From contig NZ_PEFE01000001.1 of NCBI RefSeq assembly GCF_002754315.1, forward strand, positions 2,418,001 to 2,482,000: DNA of 64,000 nucleotides, given 5' to 3'. This stretch comes from Flavobacterium sp. 11 (GTDB taxonomy: Bacteria > Bacteroidota > Bacteroidia > Flavobacteriales > Flavobacteriaceae). Positions 10,684 to 17,344 of this stretch are shown here, piece by piece; position 1 is the first letter of the stretch; each line of letters begins with the position of its first letter. The notes beneath the pieces are model-generated. The model saw only the letters and a program-made list of their open reading frames with translations. It did not search any database and was not told the origin of the DNA. The translations under genes and the position numbers were made by a program.

Positions 10684-12117
10684 TTATTTCCAACCTCCGC
10701 CTAATGATCGGTACAATTCAATATTTGCGATTAATTGTTCTCGCTTCATATTAGCCAATTCCAATTCACTTTGCAATATATTAGCCTGAGCAGAAAGTAC
10801 TTCAAGGTATTCTGCCATTCCGTTTTTGAATAATAAATTAGAATTTTTAGTGGCTTGTTGCAACGTTTTTACGCGTTCTTGTAAAAAAGCTTCTTGCAAC
10901 GCTAATTTCTCGACTTTTACCAAAGCATTTGAGACTTCACTAACAGCCACTAAAACAGCTTGTCTGAAACTCAAAACAGCTTTTTCTCTTTCGGCGACCG
11001 CAATATTGTACTGTGTTCTCACTTTTTTATTGTTCAGTAAAGGTTGCGTTAAACCTCCGGCAATAGTTCCGAACAAAGAAGCCGGAATATTGAACCAATT
11101 GCTGGTTTCGAATGAATTTAGACCACCTTGCGCTGTAATTTTAAGAGAAGGATACAAGTCGGCTTTTGTGATTCCAACATTTGCATTAGCTACTTTTAAG
11201 GCTAATTCCGCGCTTCTTACATCAGGTCTTCTGCTTACTAGTGAAGACGGAATTCCAATAGACGCATTATTTTTTACTTCAATTGAACTCAAAAGAATGC
11301 TTCTTTGTTTTGAATTTGGAAATGAGCCTGTCAAAACACTCAACGCATTTTCCTGAATGGCAATATTTTGTTCCAATAAAGGAATCAATTGCGCAGCGTT
11401 TAATTTCTGTGCCTCAGATTGTTGAATCGCCAATGAAGTTACCTGACCTGCGTCATATTTTAATTTAATAATCTTGGTTGTACTATCATTAAGTTTCAGG
11501 TTTTGTCTGGCAATTTGCAGTTGCGCATCCAACATCAGAAGATTATAATAGCCGCTTGAAACATTGGCTACAATAGTAGTTTGCAACGCTTTTTTTACTT
11601 CTTCTGATTGAAGGTATTCCGCAAAAGCGCCTTTTTTCTGATTGCGAATTTTACCCCAGATGTCTGCTTCCCATGAAAGAGAAATTCCCGCAGAATAATC
11701 ATCGATATGGTTTTGACCTAAAGCCTGACTTAAATTCTTTCCGGTAAAACTATTGTCTGATGGATTGCTGGTACTTGCATTCACAAATAAATTGGCCTGA
11801 GGGACATTTCCCCATTTCGATTGTGTGAACCTGAATTGTGCAATTTCAATATTTTTAGTCGCGATTTGCAAATTGTTGTTTCTGGTAATAGCGCTGTCAA
11901 TCAATTGGATAATATCTTTTTCTGTGAAGAAATTTTTCCACTCCAAGTCACCAATACTTGTAGTATCAGTTGAAACCGATACATTCCTGAAATTCTCAGG
12001 AAATGCATCTTTTGGGGTTTCTATATTCTTCGAAACGTTACAGGATATTATTGTGGTGATCATAATAACGACCATCACGATTTTGGTTATATATTTTTTC
12101 ATTTTATATGTTGTCAT
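10684..12117 (-). CDS. Outer-membrane efflux channel lipoprotein (TolC/OprM/NodT family)
   Basis: The exit duct of a tripartite RND pump. The lipoprotein signal MKKYITKIVMVVIMITTIISC puts the acylated cysteine at about residue 21-26. Two OEP repeats follow, with long helices, periplasmic coiled coils, the SRRPDVRSAELALKVANA block and the conserved C-terminal YRSLGGGW. Start: an upstream TTG is possible, but the ATG at 12117 overlaps the stop of the small gene upstream (TAATG), which points to coupled translation. The ATG at 12102 gives the more classical signal peptide and is the alternative. It is the last gene of the operon and is followed by a strong terminator. The exported compound is unknown. 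Confidence 0.93.
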   Translation of the reverse strand: MTTYKMKKYITKIVMVVIMITTIISCNVSKNIETPKDAFPENFRNVSVSTDTTSIGDLEWKNFFTEKDIIQLIDSAITRNNNLQIATKNIEIAQFRFTQSKWGNVPQANLFVNASTSNPSDNSFTGKNLSQALGQNHIDDYSAGISLSWEADIWGKIRNQKKGAFAEYLQSEEVKKALQTTIVANVSSGYYNLLMLDAQLQIARQNLKLNDSTTKIIKLKYDAGQVTSLAIQQSEAQKLNAAQLIPLLEQNIAIQENALSVLTGSFPNSKQRSILLSSIEVKNNASIGIPSSLVSRRPDVRSAELALKVANANVGITKADLYPSLKITAQGGLNSFETSNWFNIPASLFGTIAGGLTQPLLNNKKVRTQYNIAVAEREKAVLSFRQAVLVAVSEVSNALVKVEKLALQEAFLQERVKTLQQATKNSNLLFKNGMAEYLEVLSAQANILQSELELANMKREQLIANIELYRSLGGGWK

Positions 12118-12230
12118 TAAATTTCTGTACAAGTATCTTTTCTGGTTTCGAGATCTTTCGAAACTTTGTAGGATATGTATCCGATGCCAATGAGAACGGT
12201 CACCAGAATTGTCGTTATATAATTTTCCAT
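12117..12230 (-). CDS. 37-residue single-pass membrane microprotein in RND operon
   Basis: A small frame sits exactly in the gap between the pump and channel genes. The ATG at 12230 lies 2 nt after the pump stop codon, and the TAA overlaps the channel ATG by one base. The product starts MENYITTILVTVLIGIGYIS and ends YKVSKDLETRKDTCTEI: a hydrophobic helix of about 17 residues followed by a charged tail, so N-out/C-in or the reverse cannot be decided. The two-sided coupling argues for real translation. By position and topology it recalls AcrZ, the small E. coli protein that binds AcrB, but there is no sequence evidence of homology. It could also be a translational spacer. Confidence 0.6.
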   Translation of the reverse strand: MENYITTILVTVLIGIGYISYKVSKDLETRKDTCTEI

Positions 12231-12232
12231 TT

Positions 12233-15200
12233 TTATTTTTCTTCGTTATGAATTACGGCTACTGGTTTCCCAGAAACCTTTTCTTGTAAATGTTGGAATA
12301 CGATGAATAAAACCGGGATGATTAACAACCCCAGAATTACTCCTGAAATCATACCTCCGGCGGCACCAATACTGATGGAGTGATTACCTTGTGCAGATGG
12401 CCCTTTGGCACTCATCATCGGGATTAATCCCACAACAAAAGCCAGTGATGTCATGATAATTGGTCGTAAACGTAGTTTTGCTGCATCGATTGACGCTTTG
12501 ACTAATGCCTGCCCGGATTTTCGTTTTTGGACGGCAAACTCTACAATCAAGATGGCATTTTTGGCGAGAAGCCCAATTAACATTACCAATGCAACTTGTA
12601 CATAAATGTTGTTTTCGATTCCTGTTAATCCAATGGCTACAAATACTCCAAATATACCTGCGGGTATGGATAAGATTACGGCCAATGGCAAAATGTAACT
12701 TTCGTACTGTGCAGCAAGTAGGAAATAAATGAATATCAGACACAGTAAGAAAATAGTTGCTGATTGACCTCCGGAAGAAATTTCCTCACGGGTTTGTCCT
12801 GAGAATTCATAGCTGTAACCTGCTGGCAATTGCTGTGCTGCCACTTCTTCAATGGCTTTTATGGCGTCTCCGGAACTAAATCCAGGTTTCGGAATTGCAT
12901 TAATCGAAATGGAGTTGAATAAATTGTATCTCGAGGCAGTTTCAGAACCATAAATACGAGTCAGTTTTACTAAAGTATTTATTGGCACCATTTCTCCATT
13001 TTTGTTTTTCACAAAAACTCGGTCTATGGCAGAAGGATCTGCTCTGTCATCAACATCAGCCTGAACAACCACTCTGTAATATTTACCAAATCGGTTAAAG
13101 TCAGATGCTTGTGCTGAACCGAAATACGCTTGCATCGTTTGCAAAATATCTTTGACTTTTACACCTAATTGATCTGCTTTTGCATCATTAATATCCAATT
13201 GTAATTGAGGATAATCTGCTTTGAAACTCGTAAATGCTACAGCAATTTCAGGGCGTTTCATCAATTCTCCAATGAAGTTTTGAGAGATACCACTAAACTT
13301 ATCCAGTTTACCACCGGTTTTATCCTGCAACACTAAGTCTAAAGCTTCTACGTTACTAAATCCCGGAACGGTTGGGAAACTAAATACGAAGAAACTACCT
13401 CCTGAAATCGCACCTAATTTGCCACGAACCTGATTCATTATTTCATCAATATTTTTAACATCGCCACGTTCGTCATTTGGTTTAAGCAATACAAAAACAA
13501 CTGCAGAAGATGGACTTGTAGAATTTGTCAATAAGTTGAAACCTGAAATCGCAGTAACGTCTCTTGATGCATCTAATTTGCTTAGTATATTTTCAGCTTC
13601 AGTCATTACTTTTTGGGTTCCGTCTAAAGAGGTTCCAGAAGGAGTATTTACCGCAATGGCAATAAAGCCTTGATCTTCTGTTGGGATAAATCCTGAAGGA
13701 GTCGTTTTTACCATAACAATTGTAGCAAAAGTAATTAAAGCCAATCCGCCTAAGCTTACCCATTTGTTACGAATCAAGAATTTCAATCCACCAACATAAC
13801 GGTTGGTAAGAGAGTTGAAACTATTGTTGAATCCGATAAAAAATTTCTCTTTAAAACCTTGTTTAGCATATGGCTTATTTCCTTCTTCACCTGTATGATT
13901 ATCTTTTAAGAATAAAGCCGCAAGAGCAGGACTTAACGTTAAAGCGTTTACTGCCGAAATTACAATTGCAATCGCCATCGTAAAAGCAAACTGTCGATAG
14001 AAAACCCCTGTTGATCCTTCCATAAAACCAACCGGCAAGAATACCGCCGCCATTACCAATGTAATCGAAATAATCGCACCGGTAATTTCGTGCATAGCTT
14101 CATGTGTTGCAATTTTTGGAGACAAATGTTTATGTTCCATTTTAGCATGCACGGCTTCGACCACCACAATCGCATCATCGACGACAATACCAATCGCTAA
14201 GATTAAAGCGAATAATGTCAATAAGTTAATCGAAAATCCGAATAACTGCATGAAGAAGAACGTACCTAGAATGGCCACAGGAACTGCAATTGCCGGAATT
14301 AAAGTCGATCTGAAATCCTGCAAGAAGATAAATACAACGATAAATACTAATATAAACGCTTCTATCAAAGTTTGTTTTACCTGATCGATAGATTGATCTA
14401 ACGAAACCTTTGTGCTATAGAAAATATTGTGTTTTATGCCTGGAGGAAAATCTTTTGAGGCTTTCACAATTAGCTTATTAATTGCAACTTGAATGTCATT
14501 TGAGTTAGAACCCGCCAACTGAATAACACCAATTACAATTCCCTTTTTTCCGTTTAAACGCGTTAAGCTGTTATAAGAATAGGAACCAAGTTCTACTCTG
14601 GCAACATCTTTTAAGCGCAGGACAGAACCATCTGCATTCGAACGAATGGCAATATTTTGATAATCTTCTGGTTTAGTAAGTTTCCCTTTATATTTAATTA
14701 CATATTCAAAAACCTCTTTACTTCTTTCACCAAATTTACCTGGAGCAGCTTCTAAACTTTTGTCCTGAATAGCTGCCATTACTTCATTTGGTGTAACCTG
14801 ATAGGTTGACATTTGAGTTGGATTTAACCAAACTCTCATCGAATAATCTTTGACTCCACCAAAAATACTGGCAGATCCTACACCCGGAATACGTTTGATT
14901 TCAGGAATAATATTAATTTGAGCATAATTGGCAACAAAAGTCTGATCGTATTTTGACTCATCATCGGTATACATACCAATCGCCATGATGAAACTGTTTT
15001 GTTGTTTTGCAGTGGTTACACCTTGCTGAACAACTTCTGCCGGCAACTGACTTGTAGCTTGTGCCACCCTGTTTTGAACGTTTACAGCTGCCTGATCAGC
15101 ATCAGTACCAAGTTTAAAGAAAACAGTAATAGCAAGAGTACCATCATTACTGGCTGTTGAGCTCATGTACGTCATGTTTTCAACACCGTTTATAGATTCT

Positions 15201-15397
15201 TCCAGAGAAGGGGCAACAGAACGCAAAACTGTTTCTGCATTAGCTCCAGGATAAACTGCCGTCACTAAAACCGATGGTGGTGCAATATCTGGAAACTGTT
15301 GTAAAGGCAACTTCGTCAGACCAAGTATACCTAATATCACCAATAAAATGGAAATAACAGTTGCCAGTACGGGTCTTTGTATAAATATTTTGAACAT
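12233..15397 (-). CDS. RND multidrug efflux inner-membrane transporter (AcrB/HAE1 family)
   Basis: A 1054-residue proton-driven pump of normal family length. It starts MFKIFIQRPVLATVISILL (TM1) with PLQQFPDIAPP next to it. The TM4 segment FALILAIGIVVDDAIVVVEA carries the proton-relay aspartates, and the second half repeats the pattern with TM10 LVMLIGLLAKNAILIVEFA. Two large periplasmic loops form the porter and docking domains. GFIPTEDQGF is typical for HAE1 pumps. It is 12 bp downstream of the adaptor gene and 2 nt upstream of a membrane microprotein. Expression should follow the TetR operators upstream of the adaptor. The likely role is export of amphiphilic drugs or toxic metabolites. Confidence 0.97.
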   Translation of the reverse strand: MFKIFIQRPVLATVISILLVILGILGLTKLPLQQFPDIAPPSVLVTAVYPGANAETVLRSVAPSLEESINGVENMTYMSSTASNDGTLAITVFFKLGTDADQAAVNVQNRVAQATSQLPAEVVQQGVTTAKQQNSFIMAIGMYTDDESKYDQTFVANYAQINIIPEIKRIPGVGSASIFGGVKDYSMRVWLNPTQMSTYQVTPNEVMAAIQDKSLEAAPGKFGERSKEVFEYVIKYKGKLTKPEDYQNIAIRSNADGSVLRLKDVARVELGSYSYNSLTRLNGKKGIVIGVIQLAGSNSNDIQVAINKLIVKASKDFPPGIKHNIFYSTKVSLDQSIDQVKQTLIEAFILVFIVVFIFLQDFRSTLIPAIAVPVAILGTFFFMQLFGFSINLLTLFALILAIGIVVDDAIVVVEAVHAKMEHKHLSPKIATHEAMHEITGAIISITLVMAAVFLPVGFMEGSTGVFYRQFAFTMAIAIVISAVNALTLSPALAALFLKDNHTGEEGNKPYAKQGFKEKFFIGFNNSFNSLTNRYVGGLKFLIRNKWVSLGGLALITFATIVMVKTTPSGFIPTEDQGFIAIAVNTPSGTSLDGTQKVMTEAENILSKLDASRDVTAISGFNLLTNSTSPSSAVVFVLLKPNDERGDVKNIDEIMNQVRGKLGAISGGSFFVFSFPTVPGFSNVEALDLVLQDKTGGKLDKFSGISQNFIGELMKRPEIAVAFTSFKADYPQLQLDINDAKADQLGVKVKDILQTMQAYFGSAQASDFNRFGKYYRVVVQADVDDRADPSAIDRVFVKNKNGEMVPINTLVKLTRIYGSETASRYNLFNSISINAIPKPGFSSGDAIKAIEEVAAQQLPAGYSYEFSGQTREEISSGGQSATIFLLCLIFIYFLLAAQYESYILPLAVILSIPAGIFGVFVAIGLTGIENNIYVQVALVMLIGLLAKNAILIVEFAVQKRKSGQALVKASIDAAKLRLRPIIMTSLAFVVGLIPMMSAKGPSAQGNHSISIGAAGGMISGVILGLLIIPVLFIVFQHLQEKVSGKPVAVIHNEEK

Positions 15398-15409
15398 TTT
15401 TTATATAAA

Positions 15410-16549
15410 TTATTTTTTGTTAATTATTTGGGCAACTTTAGCCGTTGTTTTTTCTGGTTGAATTACCTGTCCTTCCTGAAGTTTGTCGATACCGCTTAAT
15501 ACAATTTGGTCTCCAGATTTTACACCGTCTTTGATAAGATAGTCAGTACCACTTTTACCAATAATTGTGATAGGCATTTTGTTAACCTTGTTTGCTTTGT
15601 TTAGTGTAAAAACGAATATTTTATCCTGCATTTCTACTGTGGCCGATTGTGGAACCAAAATGGCATCATTGTGTTGGATTCCCAAACGAATTTTCCCTGT
15701 ATTTCCTGAACGTAGCGTTCCGCCTGCATTGGGAAAAGTTGCTCTAAGTGTGATTGCCCCTGTGTTTTTATCAAATTGTCCGTCGACCATATCGATTTTA
15801 CCTAATTGCGGGTAATCCGAATTATCAGCAAGAATTAAAGTAACCGGAGGAATTTTTTTGATTTTATCGCCAAGGGTATTTCCTGTATAAAGCGATTTGA
15901 ATTTGATAAAATCGGTTTCACCTAATGAGAAATAAGCATACACTTCATGCACATCTGATAAGCTGGTTAACGGCTCAACATCAGTTGAGGCAACTAAACT
16001 TCCTTGTTTTTTAGGCAATCTTCCAATATAACCGCTAACAGGAGCTGTAACATTTGTATATCCTAAATTAATTCTAGCGGAACCTACCATTGCTTTTGCT
16101 TGTTCGATATTGGCAGCTGCTATTTTTTGCGAAGCTTTAGCCGTTTTCAACTGATAGTCCGAAACTACTTTGTTCTGAACCAAAGGCATCAATTTATCGA
16201 CTTCTAATTGAGCGTTTAAATAAGCCGCTTCTGCCGCGTGAAGATTAGCCAAAGCATTGTTTAATTGCTCACGAAAAGGGCGTTCGTTTATTTTAAAAAG
16301 TGTCTGACCTTTGTTAACATAAGTACCTTCGTCTACATATATTCTTTCTAGGTTTCCGGATACTTGCGGGCGAATTTCTACATCTACAGCACCTTGTAGA
16401 GCAGCTGGATATTCGGTTTCTGTTGAGGCTGCCTGATAGCTAATACTCATTACAGGAAGAGTAGGAGCTGCAGCAGCAGGCGTTTGTGATTTATCTGCAC
16501 AGCTGATTATAAACACAGCCATTATGCTTAATAATGTAATTTTTTTCAT
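15410..16549 (-). CDS. RND efflux periplasmic adaptor lipoprotein (AcrA/MexA family)
   Basis: The membrane-fusion subunit that links pump and channel. From the chosen ATG at 16549 the protein has 379 residues and a lipoprotein signal MKKITLLSIMAVFIISC with cysteine 17. A longer frame starting at 16618 would place an operator palindrome (16591-16614) inside the coding region and bury the signal peptide, so I reject it. The lipoyl/barrel-sandwich halves are visible (EIRPQVSGNLERIYVDEGTYVNKG and INLGYTNVTAPVSGYIG) with a helical hairpin in between, followed by the beta-barrel domain (GAITLRATFPNAGGTLRSG). It is the first gene of the adaptor-pump-microprotein-channel operon, controlled by the neighbouring TetR. 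Confidence 0.93.
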   Translation of the reverse strand: MKKITLLSIMAVFIISCADKSQTPAAAAPTLPVMSISYQAASTETEYPAALQGAVDVEIRPQVSGNLERIYVDEGTYVNKGQTLFKINERPFREQLNNALANLHAAEAAYLNAQLEVDKLMPLVQNKVVSDYQLKTAKASQKIAAANIEQAKAMVGSARINLGYTNVTAPVSGYIGRLPKKQGSLVASTDVEPLTSLSDVHEVYAYFSLGETDFIKFKSLYTGNTLGDKIKKIPPVTLILADNSDYPQLGKIDMVDGQFDKNTGAITLRATFPNAGGTLRSGNTGKIRLGIQHNDAILVPQSATVEMQDKIFVFTLNKANKVNKMPITIIGKSGTDYLIKDGVKSGDQIVLSGIDKLQEGQVIQPEKTTAKVAQIINKK

Positions 16550-16765: not shown

Positions 16766-17344
16766 TTATTTGAATATATTTTTAATCAGGTATTCTGACA
16801 TTTTTTTAATTTTTATAGGATTTCTATGGAGAATGTAAGATTGTTTCCAACCTGTAAATGATGTCATAATATACTCAGCCATTAAATCAGCATCTTCAGT
16901 ATCATCCATTTCCTTATTGTCCATCGCTTTTTGAACCGTTTCAGCTAAAAAATCAATAAAAATATCATTGTTTTTACTCATAAGGTTGCGAACTTCAAGG
17001 TCTTCAGGTGCTAATTCAAAAATAGTTTTAATACCAAGACAACCTTTTTCACAATCTACTATCCAGGATGCTTTATCATTAATAATGTTGATAAGAGCTT
17101 GCTTTGCAGATTTTTCTTTGGCCACTTTTTGCTTTACTTCACACATTGCTGTATCAAAATAATTGCTGATGCATTTCATAAATAATTGATGCTTGTCACC
17201 AATTGTATTATATAAACTACTTCTATTGATCTGCATTGCATCCACGAGGTCTTGCATTGAAGTAGCATTATATCCTTTTTCCCAAAAGACATTCATTGCT
17301 TTTTCAATTTTTTCAACTTCGTTAAATTCTACGCAGCGAGCCAT
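16766..17344 (-). CDS. TetR/AcrR-family transcriptional repressor
   Basis: A 192-residue regulator. Its N-terminal helix-turn-helix (about residues 10-55) reads KAMNVFWEKGYNATSMQDLVDAMQINRSSLYNTIGDKHQLF, split here as AMNVFWEKGYNATSMQDLV and AMQINRSSLYNTIGDKH. The C-terminal ligand-binding domain is helical, with CEKGCLGIKTIFEL resembling the TetR_C regions of AcrR/YxaF-type repressors. It lies upstream of, and in the same direction as, the efflux operon it most likely represses. One operator copy overlaps its own promoter, so it is probably autoregulated. The inducer is unknown. Confidence 0.9.
   Translation of the reverse strand: MARCVEFNEVEKIEKAMNVFWEKGYNATSMQDLVDAMQINRSSLYNTIGDKHQLFMKCISNYFDTAMCEVKQKVAKEKSAKQALINIINDKASWIVDCEKGCLGIKTIFELAPEDLEVRNLMSKNNDIFIDFLAETVQKAMDNKEMDDTEDADLMAEYIMTSFTGWKQSYILHRNPIKIKKMSEYLIKNIFK

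Follow-up and report, generated by a model that had tools for sequence, protein, structure and literature searches.

A conserved 37-residue membrane microprotein in Flavobacterium RND efflux operons, probably descended from the signal peptide of the neighbouring channel

Small proteins with a single membrane helix have been described around efflux pumps of the resistance-nodulation-division (RND) type, and we report here a candidate of this sort in Flavobacterium sp. 11, encoded by a 37-codon frame between the pump and channel genes of an RND operon (positions 12117 to 12230 of the window, that is, of the whole 64,000-nucleotide stretch analysed, positions 2,418,001 to 2,482,000 of contig NZ_PEFE01000001.1 in assembly GCF_002754315.1). 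AcrZ (YbhT, 49 residues), the partner of AcrB in E. coli, is a small protein of one helix that associates with an RND pump of the AcrB type. It is oriented with its N-terminus in the periplasm and its C-terminus in the cytoplasm, and a helix bend at Pro16, where glycine can replace proline, is needed for AcrB binding (PMC7267776); its gene is located between molybdenum-related operons (PMC4462101). In Methylomonas sp. DH-1, WatS1 to WatS4 are unannotated polypeptides of about 50 residues with one predicted transmembrane segment, and deletion of watS1 lowers acetate tolerance while its overexpression raises tolerance only when the RND pump WatABO is present (PMC10355033). A review names AcrZ, YajC and WatS1, describing YajC as a small protein that reportedly binds AcrB at a site resembling that of AcrZ (PMC10710835). 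AcrZ also appears in a survey of small membrane proteins, in whose main text a word search returned neither "bacteroid" nor "flavobact" (PMC10903887). Among PubMed Central papers under Creative Commons licences, searched by title and start of abstract, no description of the protein presented here was found. YajC is a Sec-associated protein encoded elsewhere. Single helices and placement within an operon are also features of CydX- and KdpF-type small subunits of membrane complexes, whose partner enzymes differ from an RND pump, and we know of none that originated by duplication of a signal peptide.

The N-out/C-in orientation of AcrZ is also the one that charge predicts for the Flavobacterium microprotein. 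Unlike acrZ, the gene of the microprotein lies between those of the pump and the channel and appears to derive from the signal peptide of the channel. The WatS polypeptides are a second precedent, as one-helix peptides held to act through an RND pump; they differ from the microprotein in having several homologous genes, whose own promoters are under the control of WatR; in the parts of that paper covered there is no mention of a location between pump and channel or of an origin from a channel signal peptide (PMC10355033). A profile of the microprotein compared with all PDB chains at E values up to 10 gave three weak matches, none of them AcrZ, revealing no relation to AcrZ or to another solved chain, and no family was found for it in NCBIfam (E up to 1) or Pfam (E up to 0.001). 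The comparison with AcrZ, already drawn in the initial annotation, thus stays an analogy, since membership by sequence was not found.

The 37-codon frame, translated as MENYITTILVTVLIGIGYISYKVSKDLETRKDTCTEI (12230 to 12117, minus strand), is a genuine gene. Homologues of the channel were collected from 80 loci of named genomes and from the best 30 loci of 398 Flavobacterium genomes, the locus of the window included; the two sets very likely share species, and counts of loci are not counts of independent species. The frame is intact in 67 of these 110 loci, namely every locus with a channel identity of at least 68%, and absent from the other 43; in relatives its product has 36 to 38 residues. 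L001 and L002 were set aside as copies of the window, and sequences of other lengths than 37 residues did not enter the codon counts. The 57 distinct 37-codon sequences vary mainly at third codon positions (diversity 0.133, 0.102 and 0.340 at the three positions), and the median ratio of nonsynonymous to synonymous substitution (dN/dS, NG86 method) is 0.139 over 1463 pairs, against 1.26 to 1.33 in four of the five other frames. Adding more divergent relatives brings the ratio to 0.174; for comparison, it is 0.110 in the final 37 codons of the pump, 0.239 in the opening 37 of the channel and 0.097 in the 37 that follow these. Within the helix of the microprotein (codons 5 to 21) it is 0.19. M1, Y4, I5, T6, Y21, C34 and E36 are invariant in all 57 sequences. 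In a second set, in which identical rows were collapsed from 78 to 71 distinct loci, the cysteine near the C-terminus is kept in every locus, 70 times at position 34 and once shifted by a one-residue insertion. An A stands at position -3 of the start in 55 of the 71, and A-rich starts fit translation initiation in Flavobacterium (PMC6847099). A chance open reading frame was rejected on the grounds of this conservation and of dN/dS.

The genes and segments concerned are these:

12117 to 12230 (stop included), minus strand: 37-codon microprotein gene; predicted helix at about residues 2 to 33, hydrophobic core at about 5 to 20, charged tail with the conserved Cys34.
12115 to 12117, minus strand: second, upstream ATG available to the channel, lying within TAATG and not conserved.
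10684 to 12102, minus strand: outer membrane channel, OprM/NodT-type lipoprotein, 472 residues (Pfam OEP, 2.9e-43; NCBIfam outer_NodT, 7.9e-76).
12233 to 15397, minus strand: RND pump, AcrB/MexB-type permease, 1054 residues (Pfam ACR_tran; NCBIfam TIGR00915, above cut-off); its solved relatives include CmeB, MexB and AcrB.
12125 to 12241 (approximate edges), minus strand: duplicated segment, copy 1, the microprotein gene with about 10 nt upstream; 67% DNA identity to copy 2.
11997 to 12113, minus strand: duplicated segment, copy 2 and putative source, the 5' part of the channel gene, which codes for the signal peptide, the lipobox and the VSKxxETPKD motif.

The initial annotation had placed a 37-residue frame inside the RND operon, starting 2 nt after the pump stop, and both statements are borne out on the minus strand (pump stop at 12235 to 12233, microprotein ATG at 12230 to 12228). 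Its claim that the frame overlaps the channel start through TAATG holds in part: the stop TAA (12119 to 12117) does share bases with an ATG (12117 to 12115) that is in frame with the channel, but the start supported by homology is the ATG at 12102, 15 nt farther downstream, from which alignment with relatives reads the signal peptide MKKYITKIV..SC, and TAATG is present in 38 of 67 carrier loci.

The gene is a genus-restricted and nearly fixed companion of one pump type within the genomes searched. A search profile built from 22 microproteins matched 104 of the 398 genus genomes at E 0.01, and 99 of these at 1e-10 or better. All 94 genomes with a channel at least 78% identical carry the gene. 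The last 250 residues of the pump were matched at E 1e-125 in 106 of the 398 genomes; where this pump end is at least 92% identical, 98 of 101 genomes carry the microprotein gene, and below 92% one of five does (G223, at 86%). The initial annotation would have been refuted by a frame that is not conserved in close relatives; with 98 carriers in 101 genomes this refutation did not come about, and a conserved one-helix membrane microprotein gene fixed within the RND operon is supported. Among 397 genomes of the family, strong matches (below 1e-20) occurred in three, all of the same genus, and no spread beyond the genus was seen; the remaining seven, at E 1e-3 to 1e-2, are partial or in longer frames. 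As to other Bacteroidota, inspection by eye of ATG frames of 25 to 89 residues at the junctions of the 43 non-carrier loci, up to four per locus, revealed no resembling short membrane frame.

Comparison with the neighbouring channel points to the origin of the gene. An ungapped alignment pairs the microprotein with the first 37 residues of the channel, 16 of them identical, and the DNA of the microprotein gene is 67% identical over 115 nt to the stretch 128 nt downstream, a likeness that fades at both ends and compares with 41% at the next-best offset. Across 69 loci, DNA identity between the microprotein gene and the 5' end of the channel averages 61% (range 42 to 69), and 18,147 in-frame channel windows taken as control average 29% with a maximum of 46%; the lowest values, 42% in L037 and L160, lie inside the control range. 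A hidden Markov model of the microprotein gave a further match in 94 of the 99 carrier genomes, and among the matches listed all 49 were channel starts. In profile-profile comparison by hhalign the match was 97.5% when the channels came from carriers and 96.2% when they came from non-carrier loci. The homology to the N-terminus of this OprM/NodT-type channel is ungapped over residues 1 to 36, with MxxYIT...IS[C/Y]xVSKxxE..KD common to both. On these sequence comparisons the microprotein and the 5' end of the channel gene, which encodes a lipoprotein signal peptide, share common ancestry. The motif CKVSKDxETPKxxLP is widespread in channels of loci without the microprotein, which suggests that the microprotein is the copy and the channel the source. 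Identity is nearly equal within loci (60.8%) and between loci (60.5%), so the likeness reads as old common ancestry, and no sign of gene conversion as its cause was found. A recent duplication confined to the genome of the window was also rejected, as relatives carry the copy too.

Relative to its parent, the microprotein has lost the lipobox cysteine, K2 and K7, ends after codon 37 and has gained the conserved Cys34. In all 71 distinct loci the cysteine at position 21 is replaced (by Tyr in 63, Trp in 7 and His in 1), the Lys that the channel has at position 2 has given way to Glu or Asn, and no basic residue occurs at position 7. The net charge of residues 2 to 7 is -1 in 69 microproteins and 0 in two, against +2 or +3 in all 71 channels, while residues 21 to 26 are net positive in 70 of the 71. 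A lipobox with invariant Cys21 and a basic n-region are thus both missing, and the protein is most likely not processed as a lipoprotein at the former lipobox site. The single hydrophobic helix with a charged tail described in the initial annotation agrees with the AlphaFold2 model, which predicts one helix over residues 2 to 33 (mean pLDDT 84.7); no proline occurs among the residues listed for the helix columns, and Gly is found at position 15 in 47 of 57 sequences and Gly or Ala at position 17 in 51 of 57. The balance of charges, read by the positive-inside rule, suggests an N-out/C-in orientation in nearly all of the 71 distinct loci, the reverse of that of a signal peptide.

Gain and loss were placed on a tree built from the C-terminal 430 residues of the pump (140 rows collapsed to 130, of which 71 are carriers; L065 was omitted for an aberrant gap). 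Presence of the microprotein requires two state changes on this tree, which a single gain followed by a single loss could account for. The nearest non-carriers, L040, L164 and L166, meet at a fork without support, the starred branches force just one change, and these three are not firmly resolved as one lineage. In L166 (genome G111) the loss is caught directly: a decayed copy is found that opens with M, stop, N, Y, I, T, has a palindrome in place of its interior and agrees fully with the living gene in its final 18 nt, which end at TAATG. No trace of the microprotein was seen at L164 (G333), where pump and channel are separated by 3 nt, or at L168 (G078; gap of -1 nt), whose junction is the same as that of L040.

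Between its two neighbours, to both of which the initial annotation had tied it, the microprotein follows the pump. When one stop codon is added to the end of the pump match and distances are taken from there, its ATG lies 0 to 18 nt from the homologous end of the pump in all 67 carrier loci, and at 2 or 3 nt in 45 of them. The tie to the channel is not conserved: in 14 of the 67 an insert of 124 to 231 nt separates microprotein and channel, with the protein sequence nevertheless maintained. Moreover, in L161 to L163 the pump is 94 to 95% identical and the microprotein is retained beside a channel of just 59 to 61% identity. A conserved gene that adjoins the gene of its partner and is inherited with it is what an operon-encoded small subunit calls for, and this is the relation found to the pump. 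No partner cysteine was found in the last 430 pump residues, where the one conserved Cys (886) is also present in the nearest non-carriers.

Several features of these junctions were recorded beside this. In L027, L034, L097, L101 and L112 the pump frame extends about 65 nt past its usual stop and overlaps the microprotein gene in another frame. The inserts between microprotein and channel (about 125 to 235 nt, with inverted-repeat ends) are carried by L015, L020, L022, L023, L025, L028, L029, L034 to L036, L039, L097, L102 and L111. Their ends resemble ACACATAGAAACATAGA, a 17-mer that, with up to one mismatch, occurs 71 times in G015 and 139 times in G792, where it often forms inverted pairs about 115 nt apart, once in G111 and not at all in the genome of the window; by sequence the repeats look like a family of the MITE or REP kind. 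The divergent channels of L161 to L163 (genomes G341, G320 and G005) keep signal peptides resembling those of the clade, which suggests exchange within the channel gene. In Pedobacter, L074, L076, L080 and L082 have pumps 89 to 90% identical to the Flavobacterium pump with channels of 56 to 59% identity and no microprotein, a hint of pump gene exchange between the two lineages.

Our preferred explanation, which we hold to be somewhat more probable than the sum of its rivals, is that the microprotein is a dedicated single-helix inner-membrane partner of the RND pump, born once from a duplicated channel signal peptide. Starting from a gene whose coding status, conservation, duplication origin and link to the pump are observed, we infer translation, N-out/C-in insertion, binding to the pump and an effect on efflux. 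Once, in the ancestor of a large Flavobacterium clade, the first 37 or so codons of the channel with about 10 nt of leader would have been duplicated between pump and channel. The copy would then have lost the lipobox cysteine and the lysines of the n-region and stayed in the inner membrane as one helix, coming also to stop after codon 37 and gaining Cys34. Translated right after the pump, it would rest against the membrane domain of the pump, by analogy with AcrZ, and might tune the activity, stability or substrate preference of the pump. The source gene, outgroup junctions without the microprotein, divergent forms and a decayed copy are all still visible. That the protein is in full a fourth, inner-membrane subunit of the tripartite pump, made by duplicating the signal peptide of its own channel, stripping it of lipobox and lysines, flipping the helix and exapting it to the pump, is a more tentative proposal, to which we give slightly less than even credence.

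Several points weigh against the microprotein being a dedicated partner of the pump. G078, G111 and G333 keep a pump end 94 to 96% identical without the microprotein, so this pump can do without it. Over the C-terminal 430 residues of the pump, no position was found that is conserved in carriers yet changed in all three nearest non-carrier rows, and adjacency to the pump can mirror the place of duplication instead of a partnership. The bend proline of AcrZ is absent from the helix, in which glycines are common at positions 15 and 17. For the tail (codons 22 to 37) dN/dS is 0.53 and protein constraint is less clear; one antisense frame also has a low ratio, 0.30, though this is expected as wobble positions coincide. 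The last eight codons show low synonymous variation in the 57 loci without insert, which speaks against an exclusive role at the pump, and part of the conservation may be cis-regulatory.

Among other explanations, the one that survives best, while still unlikely, keeps the parental topology. The microprotein would then sit N-in/C-out as an uncleaved mimic of the signal peptide, its periplasmic tail resembling the mature N-terminus of the channel, and would serve channel biogenesis (processing or sorting of the lipoprotein) or docking of adaptor and channel, possibly with a disulfide through Cys34. Its tail, (Y/W)KVSKxLE.xxD, is indeed a copy of CKVSKDIETPKD of the channel, and the retention of the cysteine near the C-terminus in 71 of 71 distinct loci would suit such a role. 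However, none of the 71 retains the lysines that orient the parent (position 2 holds Glu or Asn, position 7 an uncharged residue), from which the opposite orientation is predicted, and the three loci that keep the microprotein beside a channel of 59 to 61% identity show it following the pump.

A role in cis comes next and is improbable as the whole explanation: the frame would be chiefly a translational coupler or leader, passing ribosomes that have finished the pump on to the start of the channel, and its peptide would be of little consequence. Pump stop, short frame and TAATG are tightly consecutive in the window, and TAATG recurs in 38 of 67 loci. Because the last eight codons are synonymously constrained in the 57 insert-free loci and the dead copy of L166 preserves its last 18 nt up to TAATG, the 3' end of the microprotein gene may also help translation of the channel. 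In the 12 loci with an insert, a small sample, synonymous variation of codons 33 to 37 is somewhat higher. Positions 12117 to 12140 and the equivalent sites in relatives are a possible cis signal for channel translation. As a full account this meets three obstacles: the helix is under purifying selection as a protein (dN/dS 0.19 for codons 5 to 21), 14 of 67 loci with more than 100 nt inserted before the channel still keep the protein sequence, and in the 43 non-carrier loci the channel comes after the pump at distances that vary, with no such frame between them.

Short exported peptides derived from lipoprotein signal peptides occur in Gram-positive bacteria, and descent from such a signal peptide would make a cleaved, secreted signal-like peptide, comparable to these pheromones, conceivable here; we consider it very improbable, as the lipobox cysteine is lost in 71 of 71 distinct loci, the consensus columns show no Ala-X-Ala-like cleavage motif (judged by eye, without a cleavage-site program) and the helix is itself constrained. 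Partial duplicates usually decay, as the copy in L166 has, which would favour a chance frame or a dead relic of duplication; this can be practically dismissed, since the frame is intact in 67 of 110 loci, present in 99 of 398 genus genomes and held at dN/dS of 0.14 to 0.17.

Upstream of the pump lie the following genes, the start of the adaptor having been set by eye at the Met of the signal peptide:

15410 to 16549, minus strand: periplasmic adaptor (membrane fusion protein; Pfam HlyD_D23; NCBIfam RND_mfp, 4.1e-77).
16766 to 17344, minus strand: TetR-type regulator, upstream on the same strand (Pfam TetR_N, 6.6e-9).

The TetR-type gene is a possible local regulator. In L184, a further operon copy that G096 carries close to the end of a contig, the matches to adaptor, pump and channel are broken over several frames with the microprotein intact, which could be decay or an assembly error.

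To our knowledge, most one-helix bacterial microproteins have no known origin. The new point here is the origin itself, as read from the alignments: the lipoprotein signal peptide of the same operon has been turned into a separate, selected membrane microprotein. The parent still adjoins the microprotein, so that the loss of the cysteine, the loss of the lysines, the early stop and the new cysteine can be read off, and both its gain and its loss can be mapped onto a tree. If binding to the pump holds true, RND pumps would seem to acquire modulating helices repeatedly and from unrelated sources, and duplicates of signal peptides would be a concrete place to seek further ones.
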